Positions 46,585 to 49,533 of a stretch of DNA of 64,000 bases are shown here, one piece after another. The notes beneath the pieces are model-generated. The model was not told the DNA's origin and ran no database searches. It saw only the letters and a list, made by a program, of their open reading frames with translations. The number at the start of each line of letters is the position of its first letter. Position 1 is the stretch's first letter. The translations under genes were made by a program, and so were the position numbers. Origin of the DNA: Nocardia albiluteola (GTDB lineage: Bacteria > Actinomycetota > Actinomycetes > Mycobacteriales > Mycobacteriaceae); contig NZ_JAHKNI010000002.1 of the NCBI RefSeq assembly GCF_018860155.1, forward strand, positions 598,713 through 662,712. The letters run 5' to 3'.

Positions 46585-47736
46585 CTACAGCGAGTTGCGC
46601 GCCAGGTCCATCGTCTGAACCAGCAACTTGCCGACCGCCTCGGTCTCGGTCAGGAATCCGTCGTGCCCGTCGCGCGAGCGCACGATCTCGAGCCGCCGGC
46701 ATCCGGGGAGCAGATCGGCCAGCTCCTGCTGGGTGTGCAGCGGATACAGCCGGTCCGAGTCGACACCGCCGACCACGCAGGGCACCGCCGTCGCGGCCAG
46801 CGCCGCGGCCACCCCGCCCCGGTCGCGGCCCACGTCGTGACGGTTCATGGCGTCGGTCAGGAGCACGTAGCTGGCCGCGTCGAAGCGCGCGGTCAGCTTC
46901 GCGGCCTGATGGTCCAGATAGCTCTGCACCGCGTAGCGGCCGCCGTCGCGGGGGTTCTCCTCGCCCTGGGCGCGGTTCTCGAAGCGGTGGTCCAGCTCGA
47001 AATCGGTGCGATAGGTCAGGTGCGCGATGCGACGGGCGATGCCCAGACCGGTCGTCGGCGTGCGGCCGGTGCCGTGATAATTGCCACCCTGCCAGTCCGG
47101 ATCGGCCGTAATGGCCGCGATCTGCGTGGTCTGGGTGCCGATCTGGTCCGCGGTGGCGCGGGCTCCGACGGCCAGCACCAGCGCGGCTCCCACCCGCTCC
47201 GGGTGCCCGACCATCCACTCCAGCACCCGCATGCCGCCCATCGACCCGCCGACCACCGCGGCGAGCCGGTCGACGCCGAGCAGATCGAACAGCGCCCCCT
47301 CCGCACTCACCTGGTCGCGGATGGATATGCCGGGGAACCGGGCTCCCCAGGGCCGCCCGTCCGAGGCGATGGACGCCGGGCCGGTGCTGCCCTTGCAGCC
47401 GCCAAGCACGTTGGTGGCGATCACGCACCACTCGTCGGTGTCGAGCGGTGCGCCGGGCCCCACCACGCCGTCCCACCAGCCGGGCAGCGGGTGCAGCGCA
47501 TCGGGCGCGCCGACCACATGCGAGTCGCCGGTCAGCGCGTGCTCGACCAGCACGATGTTGTCCGCCGCGGGGGACAGCTCACCCCAGCGCTGCACGGCGA
47601 GCTCCACACCGGGGATCACCTCGCCGCTCTCGAGGCGGATATCGCCGACGCCGATGGTGCCCAGCCGCCCATCCGGTGGCGGCAGCAGCCGTGCTGCCCG
47701 GGTACGGGACGCGCTCCGCTCGATGCTCACGGTCAC
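46585..47736 (-). CDS. metX: Homoserine O-acetyltransferase
   Basis: A 383-residue alpha/beta hydrolase-fold acyltransferase. It transfers acetyl from acetyl-CoA to homoserine at the start of methionine synthesis. Features: [10 protein letters not shown], nucleophile motif GGSMGGM (about 164-170), and the His of [10 protein letters not shown] (Asp-His dyad). GTG at 47736 (VTVSIERS) overlaps the stop of a small ORF. Upstream are a leader peptide and a SAM-IV riboswitch. The O-acetylhomoserine sulfhydrylase gene, normally between icd1 and metX in Mycobacterium, is not present here. Confidence 0.95.
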
Positions 47737-47810
47737 CGTGCCACCGCCGCGCGGGGCGGCGTGGTCCGCCGGACCACGAAATCGGTCACGGACGCGAAAG
47801 AATTACTCAT
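47733..47810 (-). CDS. 25-residue ORF coupled to metX
   Basis: ATG at 47810 ([13 protein letters not shown]) runs to a TGA overlapping the metX GTG (GTGA). A GGAAAGAG-like site precedes it. Its only known context is the metX leader. It may couple translation of metX to ribosome passage rather than encode a working peptide. Confidence 0.4.
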
Positions 47811-47844
47811 GTCGTGGCTCTTTCCAGAGGTCTGCCGGTGAGCG

Positions 47845-47880
47845 TTATCGGAGTCCGGATAGCGGACGGCTACAACACAT
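47845..47880 (-). CDS. Cys-Cys leader peptide in the metX leader
   Basis: An 11-residue ORF, MCCSRPLSGLR, with stop TAA, begins just after AGGAGG with good spacing. It lies between the SAM-IV riboswitch and metX. Two consecutive Cys codons at positions 2-3 suggest sensing of cysteinyl-tRNA, comparable to cysteine leader uORFs described in mycobacteria. Expression not shown. Confidence 0.45.
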   Translation of the reverse strand: MCCSRPLSGLR

Positions 47881-47894
47881 TTCGGAAATCCTCC

Positions 47895-48012
47895 TGATGG
47901 TCGCGCTTGCTCTCGGCCTTCGAGAGCCCGGTCATCACCCGGAGCACCCCACCGCGACAGGAGGGTTGCCGGCCAGCGAGCCGGGGCTTGGCGCTGGCGC
48001 TCATGACCTTCC
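47895..48012 (-). ncRNA. SAM-IV riboswitch controlling metX
   Basis: Reading the minus strand from 48008, the RNA begins GGTCATGAGCGCCAGCG and continues with CAAGCCCCGGC, CTGGCCGGCAACCCTCC, GCGGTGGGGTGC and closes with GGGTGATGACC, the conserved SAM-IV core and outer stem (GGUCAU/AUGACC). A GGCTCTCG hairpin follows (47899-47928). It binds S-adenosylmethionine and lowers metX expression. This class is known from Actinomycetota, usually before metY-metX. Confidence 0.92.
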
Positions 48013-48315: not shown

Positions 48316-49533
48316 ATGTCCAAGATCAAGGTTGAAGGCACTGTCGTCGAACTCGACGGCGACGAGATGACCCGGATCATCTGGCAGTTCATCAAAGACA
48401 AGTTGATTCACCCGTACCTGGATGTGAATCTCGATTACTACGACCTCGGTATCGAATACCGCGACAAGACCGACGACCAGGTGACCATCGACGCCGCCAA
48501 CGCCATCAAGGAACACGGCGTGGGCGTCAAGTGCGCGACCATCACCCCGGACGAGGCGCGCGTCGAGGAGTTCGGCCTCAAGAAGATGTACCGGTCGCCC
48601 AACGGCACCATCCGCAACATCCTCGGCGGCACGATCTTCCGCGCGCCGATCATCATCTCGAACGTTCCGCGTCTGGTTCCCGGCTGGACCAAGCCGATCA
48701 TCATCGGCCGTCACGCCTTCGGTGACCAGTACCGCGCCACCGACTTCAAGGTGTACCAGGCCGGCACCGTCACGCTGACCTTCACCCCGGAGGACGGCAG
48801 CGAGCCGATCCAGCACGAGGTCGTGAAGATGCCCGAGGACGGCGGCGTCATCATGGGCATGTACAACTTCAAGAAGTCCATCCAGGACTTCGCGCGGGCC
48901 TCGCTGAACTACGGCCTGCAGCAGAACTACCCGGTGTATCTGTCGACGAAGAACACCATCCTGAAGGCCTACGACGGCATGTTCAAGGACACCTTCCAGG
49001 AGGTGTTCGAGACGGAGTTCAAGCCGCAGTTCGACGCCGCGGGCCTGACCTACGAGCACCGGCTCATCGACGATATGGTCGCCTCCTCGCTCAAGTGGGA
49101 GGGCGGTTACGTCTGGGCGTGCAAGAACTACGACGGTGACGTGCAGTCCGACACGGTCGCGCAGGGCTTCGGCTCGCTGGGTCTGATGACCTCGGTGCTG
49201 CTGACCCCGGACGGCCGGACCTGTGAGGCCGAGGCGGCGCACGGCACCGTGACTCGGCACTACCGGATGCACCAGCAGGGCAAGCCCACCTCCACCAACC
49301 CGATCGCCTCGATCTTCGCGTGGACCCGTGGCCTGGCGCATCGCGGCAAGCTGGACAACACCCCCGAGGTGATCGGCTTCGCCCAGACCCTCGAGGACGT
49401 GGTCATCAAGACCGTCGAGGAGGGCCAGATGACCAAGGATCTGGCACTGCTGGTCGGCGGCGATCAGGGCTACCTGACCACCGAGGAATTCCTCGGCGTG
49501 CTGGATGCCAACCTGGCGCGCGAGCTGCGCTGA
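48316..49533 (+). CDS. icd1: NADP-dependent isocitrate dehydrogenase
   Basis: A 405-residue dimeric, eukaryote-like isocitrate dehydrogenase. It converts isocitrate to 2-oxoglutarate and CO2, making NADPH, in the TCA cycle. Seen features: [13 protein letters not shown] at the start, substrate residues in [17 protein letters not shown], metal region [17 protein letters not shown] and the cofactor stretch [13 protein letters not shown] strong AGGAGG site at 48299-48304 precedes the ATG. A hairpin terminator follows at 49582. Confidence 0.97.

Follow-up and report, generated by a model that had tools for sequence, protein, structure and literature searches.

Cysteine leader peptides have been described before actinobacterial cys operons, without an intrinsic terminator and with Rho suggested to take part (Seliverstov 2005, PMC1262725), and leaderless polycysteine sORFs were reported to be cysteine-responsive in Mycobacterium smegmatis (Canestrari 2020, as cited in PMC9094748 and PMC9031893). 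Before cysS in Rhodobacterales, uORFC-8-2 carries two tandem Cys codons, and ribosome-mediated attenuation was proposed for it (PMC8632094). In M. tuberculosis, the Mbox works through a small uORF and Rho-dependent termination (PMC12810186), and B12 riboswitches with uORFs precede metE and ppe2 (PMC11260477). Tandems of SAM-I and T-box(Met) elements have been found before metX/metY (PMC9481103), and a SAM-IV riboswitch of M. avium was listed before an O-acetylhomoserine sulfhydrylase gene without a uORF (PMC3774663).

The window analysed here, a 64-kb stretch of the 9.59-Mb genome of Nocardia albiluteola, contains a SAM-IV riboswitch, a cysteine micro-ORF and metX in series. Like the cys-operon leaders and the mycobacterial sORFs, this leader places consecutive Cys codons in a short ORF ahead of sulfur genes; unlike them, it has SAM-IV in front, a strong Shine-Dalgarno sequence of its own, Cys codons at the start, and metY/metX as the genes that follow. 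The 2005 report (PMC1262725) gives no RNA element before methionine operons, whereas SAM-IV is present here. The Mbox is similar in that the riboswitch directly targets a uORF, whose translation is proposed to mask a Rho site in a pyrimidine-rich stretch, but its ligand is Mg2+ and amino-acid-sensing codons are absent. The B12 systems likewise join an aptamer to a translated uORF and pass ribosomes to the next gene through a NUGA overlap; their ligand is B12, however, and the accessible part of the account makes no mention of cysteine codons. The SAM-I/T-box tandems share the same genes, two inputs and a predicted logic of NOT SAM AND amino-acid shortage, while their aptamer is SAM-I rather than SAM-IV, with a T-box that senses tRNA-Met in the place of a translated Cys ORF. 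The uORFC-8-2 differs in its intrinsic terminator, its Cys codons at positions 14-15 and its lack of a riboswitch. Each half of the present arrangement, riboswitch-uORF and Cys leader, thus has published precedents. The pairing of SAM-IV with a Cys leader appears to be new as far as we searched: no description of it was found in the literature covered, which speaks weakly for novelty because most subscription papers lie outside that literature.

Organization of the metX leader

All elements of the leader and metX lie on the minus strand. The aptamer (48008-47898) matches the SAM-IV model (Rfam RF00634) over positions 1-116 of 116 with 104.7 bits (E 3.4e-18) against a gathering threshold of 38, and it is the sole Rfam match at gathering score in the window. 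The original prediction, made from the sequence alone, of a SAM-IV core before metX is thereby confirmed, and the AGGAGG and the peptide MCCSRPLSGLR that it placed downstream can both be read on the minus strand. The gene metX (47736-46585, GTG start at 47736) encodes homoserine O-acetyltransferase (NCBIfam NF047917, 600 bits, cut-off 475), and its nearest named relatives are those of N. jiangxiensis, N. miyunensis, N. macrotermitis, N. alni and N. vaccinii, with 86-87% identity. The divergent neighbour, encoding NADP-dependent isocitrate dehydrogenase (48316-49533, plus strand; NCBIfam NF006156, 755.8 bits), is outside the leader. Just 5' of the aptamer, a -10-like hexamer TACCAT (48022-48017) marks a putative promoter; all 70 related loci with an upstream stretch have TAnnnT 4-13 nt 5' of the aptamer, a count that carries no chance control.

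SAM-IV riboswitches possess a pseudoknot between the P3 loop and a 3' strand. In the window, the 5' strand GTCGCG of this second pseudoknot (47958-47953) faces the 3' strand CGCGAC (47905-47900), both positioned from the sequence. Complementarity between loop and 3' strand exceeded that of permuted partners: in a test on 97 distinct pairs drawn from 191 loci, none of 5000 permutations reached the mean of the real pairs. The Shine-Dalgarno sequence AGGAGG (47895-47890) begins five bases beyond the 3' strand and would be well placed for blocking once the pseudoknot forms. This ribosome-binding site, the nearest to SAM-IV, belongs to the Cys micro-ORF and not to metX. The micro-ORF itself (47880-47845) consists of 11 codons, from an ATG at 47880, nine bases downstream of AGGAGG, to a TAA. 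Since it sits behind an aptamer and has this Shine-Dalgarno sequence, it is not leaderless; it may act like the sORFs of Canestrari 2020 but is not classed as one of them. A C-rich, G-poor stretch of 19 nt follows (47844-47826; C 0.47, G 0.21), and then a weak Shine-Dalgarno-like site, GGAAAG (47825-47820), recognised by eye and represented by GGAGC in sister loci. It precedes a second ORF of 25 codons (47810-47733), whose TGA shares four bases with the metX start at 47736 as GTGA.

Three SAM-IV copies were found in the host genome. The second precedes a rhodanese-domain gene (PF00581) and metZ (NF005870), and the third a cysteine-desulfurase-like gene (PF00266; below NCBIfam cut-offs). In the family, SAM-IV was matched in 68 of 71 genomes and 30 of 31 genera.

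Distribution of the cysteine micro-ORF

Conservation of the Cys codons in relatives had been set as a test of the original prediction, and the test was passed in Nocardia as well as in half of the genera sampled. The Nocardia-centred set comprised 80 metX loci and the window locus (81 in all). A strict scan, which demanded a Shine-Dalgarno sequence plus at least two Cys among residues 2-7, was positive in 53 of the 77 metX loci with a recognised core, mostly Nocardia, and 57 of the 77 had at least one Cys. Of the four loci outside these 77, L034 and L037 contain MCCCRSPFASR, and the short stretch available for L041 and L066 shows no SAM-IV. Several scan-negative loci carry a Cys micro-ORF by eye, either running long (L077, L082, L091) or located further out (L086, MCCCRT; L090, MCRTCR). 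The micro-ORF is absent from the N. nova group (L022-L026, L028-L031, L052) and from L015, L017, L042 and L047, and has been lost repeatedly within the genus. In 71 distinct uORFs, all picked because they contain one or more Cys, this amino acid occupies position 2 in 59, position 3 in 55 and position 4 in 50. At L063, the Cys uORF itself continues into the metY tail.

The family-wide sample included 30 Nocardia loci, and 144 of its 146 SAM-IV loci were sorted by the downstream gene, the core being unrecognisable in the other two; the fetch took G018:C36 as its only Nocardia match and all but some of the lowest-scoring matches otherwise. A Cys-rich ORF (MCCCRR, MCCCSR, MCSCHE, MCRDC, MCCRS and others) was present in 26 of 58 metY or metX leaders, representing 13 of 26 genera, and missing in the remaining 32 leaders and half of the genera. 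By the strict rule, 25 of 52 metY leaders and one of nine other leaders were positive, compared with none of the 61 cysteine-desulfurase-like, 16 metZ-type and six metX-only SAM-IV leaders; the controls gave nine positives in 2600 dinucleotide shuffles and three in 144 reverse complements. The Cys micro-ORF is specific to metY-type leaders and occurs far above shuffles, and with its short length, conserved Cys and position before a sulfur gene (53/77 metX loci; 25/52 metY leaders) it resembles the cysteine leaders. The single positive among the other leaders (L231, G144:C1:393381-395292) has SAM-IV followed by GTG TGT TGT TGC (MCCCRGIRHSG), and the gene behind it gives a weak, sub-cut-off match to SsuA sulfonate-binding proteins; here the aptamer and Cys ORF are again paired, but ahead of another gene, one probably for sulfur uptake. 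Forms with one Cys were seen in g21 and g24 (MSRCR), at L232 (MCRSPR) and in g27, and one g29 genome has the longer MCIHQAHSRRFVCRR.

The class-level extension added 28 new loci from part of the matches, of which 26 were classifiable and two had no core. Seven of the 26 were metY-type, including L276 from another family with MCIRRMCCR by the strict scan and another locus with MSCQRMPRR by eye; none of the 16 cysteine-desulfurase-like loci was positive. The 'metL' leader published for S. lividans before metNIQ, as given in the attenuator table of PMC8079986, ends with ARCMCRRMCAF. This ending resembles the MCIRRMCCR before metY at L276, and the 'metL' leader may sense Cys rather than Met.

A second match to the Cys pattern in the host genome (C23, L243) was rejected as chance because it falls within a longer ORF of another frame. 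An order-level pattern with strict AGGAGG was also set aside, with two of 61 genomes matched (one being the chance C23 match) and one match in the backward control; it was too strict because many relatives have CGGAGG. SAM-IV was also noticed before other genes (L225, L226, L229, L236, L207, L168, L194, L208), which by eye encode an ABC-type binding protein at L225 and L226, a homocysteine-methyltransferase-like protein at L207 and an acyl-CoA-dehydrogenase-like protein at L194. In several genera (L131, L159, L127 and others), a GGGTCCG...CGGACCC hairpin lies between the aptamer and the Shine-Dalgarno sequence of the micro-ORF or metY; none was seen in Nocardia metYX leaders.

Proposed regulation and competing explanations

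The arrangement suggests a cysteine attenuator gated by the riboswitch, a reading to which we assign a probability of about 0.6 when Rho is not insisted upon; the Rho step on its own is more tentative. We infer SAM control of the micro-ORF, a response of the micro-ORF to Cys and re-initiation at metX. When SAM is bound, the second pseudoknot would form and hide the adjacent Shine-Dalgarno sequence, and no ribosome would enter the micro-ORF; when SAM is low, ribosomes would enter it. Scarcity of Cys-tRNA would then make the ribosome pause at codons 2-4, and because the micro-ORF is so short, the paused ribosome would sit over both the end of the ORF and the first part of the C-rich stretch, keep Rho (or other contacts) off, and allow metY/metX to be expressed. 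With plentiful Cys, the ribosome would depart fast and expression would drop. Beyond the micro-ORF, Rho, re-initiation or both may operate, and in this lineage, where metY has been deleted to a 25-codon in-frame scar, the scar would pass ribosomes to metX via the four-base overlap. Homocysteine synthesis under Cys shortage would be sensible given reverse transsulfuration, which exists in M. tuberculosis (PMC9232105) and which we assume for Nocardia.

The idea of dual sensing of SAM and cysteine had been put forward in the original prediction; the conservation of the Cys ORF fits it, but it does not extend to the half of the genera, the N. nova group and the further Nocardia loci (L015, L017, L042, L047) without the ORF. 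The broader proposal, a serial NOT-SAM AND low-Cys circuit in many genera, in which the aptamer would govern nothing but ribosome entry onto the micro-ORF, together with repeated erosion of metY to minimal in-frame relays that leave metX under the circuit after a second metY had arisen, stands at even odds in our judgement. If true, a riboswitch would be naturally connected in series with an amino-acid sensor that works through the ribosome, its ORF being 5-11 codons long, and SAM status and sulfur supply would be joined at the homocysteine-making steps.

Between the uORF stop and the next Shine-Dalgarno sequence, all 33 representatives have more C than G (C 0.44, G 0.18, skew 0.41). The skew was 0.08 in 13 metY leaders without the uORF and 0.15 in 49 cysteine-desulfurase-like leaders, comparison sets that include hairpin arms; for 18 segments upstream of genes in the window it was 0.03 (Mann-Whitney p 2e-8). 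These controls are not equal in kind. By composition, the stretch resembles the start of a Rho-loading region, yet with 19-42 nt in 20 Nocardia representatives it is short for a Rho site.

The structure tests went against a hairpin mechanism, and no conserved structure hiding metY was found. The consensus fold of 50 Nocardia leaders had an energy not below that of column shuffles (z +0.57). In region-pair permutations, carried out with 33 representatives of 69 leaders, the intercistronic stretch paired worse with the metY ribosome-binding site than permuted partners did, and one of seven comparisons passed (Shine-Dalgarno/spacer against the intercistronic stretch), with an uncorrected p of 0.007 that is a hint only. 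As a further candidate, the Cys codons might pair with the ribosome-binding site of metY; this pairing looked good in single species (L131) and was rejected, being not above shuffles in the 73 of 83 leaders that remained after ten were excluded by length.

These results bear on other ways of reading the locus. In a purely translational relay, the riboswitch would gate the micro-ORF, finishing ribosomes would re-initiate at metY or its remnant, and the peptide sequence would be irrelevant. The distances are suitable, as the uORF stop is located 30-52 nt upstream of the remnant start in 23 loci, and coupling of a B12 riboswitch and a uORF by termination-reinitiation has been published for M. tuberculosis ppe2 (PMC11260477). 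Such a relay nevertheless leaves unexplained why Cys occupies residues 2-4 across many genera and why it is absent from other SAM-IV leaders, and we regard it as unlikely.

Retention of the repeated UGU as an RNA motif, serving pairing or protein binding rather than cysteine, could account for the strong preference for TGT over TGC, which is 161:22 in the uORFs versus 100:279 in the metX genes of the 80 loci (codons that are not independent of one another), and in single cases such as L131 the UGU tract folds onto the metY start. However, this pairing is not above shuffles over the 73 leaders, and some clades kept Cys though the bases differ, for instance MCRCW with TGC codons, in which the UGU repeat is gone. 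The N. carnea group retained Cys with TGCCGGTGC, an argument for selection on the residue; an RNA motif is improbable to us. Least probable of all is a neutral leftover beside a fixed Shine-Dalgarno sequence, which the repeated loss in Nocardia and the absence from half of the genera would suit, since Cys, a strong Shine-Dalgarno sequence and position were retained together in 13 of 26 genera, against 0/61 and 0/16 in other SAM-IV leaders.

The metY remnant and the unlinked sulfhydrylase

According to a parser run over the 81 loci, 30 have an intact linked metY and 40 have short ORFs of 21-123 codons open into metX. By eye, metY is also intact at L084, L085 and L088; the ORF of L042 and L047 has six codons (MSEWSR/MSEWSE) and shows the overlap; that of L076 and L077 has 57; and L035 and L036 contain a 53-codon remnant that ends short of metX, where an SD-like GGCGGAG is found. 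L041 and L066 are truncated in this set. The four-base overlap between stop and metX start is present in 39 of the 40 short ORFs, the exception being L028, which stops ten bases earlier. In the 37 of 40 that gave a match, the remnants correspond to the opening ~20 codons of metY and to portions of its final ~90, with little between. They are open in frame, failing in only two readable loci (L035, L036), although the parser selected for openness, while the spacer before the remnant is free of a multiple-of-three constraint (10, 6 and 7 across 23 measurable loci). In three g27 loci, short ORFs overlap metX by TTGA, and the three g30 loci have no short-ORF relay into metX.

Judged by its counterparts in sister loci, homologous short ORFs that retain the ends of metY, the second ORF of the window is an in-frame scar of an eroded metY and not a leader peptide. 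Its overlap with metX, noted in the original prediction, is confirmed. The remnants form a natural series of what an eroded gene keeps, namely a start, an open frame and a stop overlapping the next start, and make the translational hand-over from gene to gene testable. A promoter-like GTnGYTAnCATCG was observed inside the 3' part of metY, near the codons for VANIGDVRS and, for example at L027, just upstream of metX. It is found in 22 of 30 intact metY genes and 9 of 40 remnants, and may be an internal metX promoter or simply a conserved part of the coding region.

Among the ORFs of the window, none between metX and the isocitrate dehydrogenase gene encodes a sulfhydrylase. The metY/metZ gene reported missing is indeed absent from this interval, but not from the genome: the search for metY elsewhere, which had been recommended, found a full copy at G000:C45:269213-270553 (NF005872, above cut-off), and metZ is located at C5, downstream of its own SAM-IV. 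The sulfhydrylase is therefore unlinked from the metX locus and not lost. The unlinked protein was matched in 58 of 59 Nocardia genomes at E 1e-60 or better, G012 being the one without a match at that level, and some genomes, such as G048, hold both copies. The metY tree covered 40 operonic copies and the 30 loci that best match the unlinked copy, which are not a random sample; a branch (98/96) separates these 30 from the operonic copies. On the simplest account, the second metY rendered the operonic one dispensable and erosion followed, probably several times.

The 5-kb locus of the unlinked metY has no Rfam match, and no SAM-IV was recognised within 420 nt upstream of the 30 unlinked-type loci. 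At L125, the unlinked metY (minus strand) has, by eye, TACCGT a few bases upstream of its likely ATG; the transcript of this copy may be leaderless and free of SAM-IV control.
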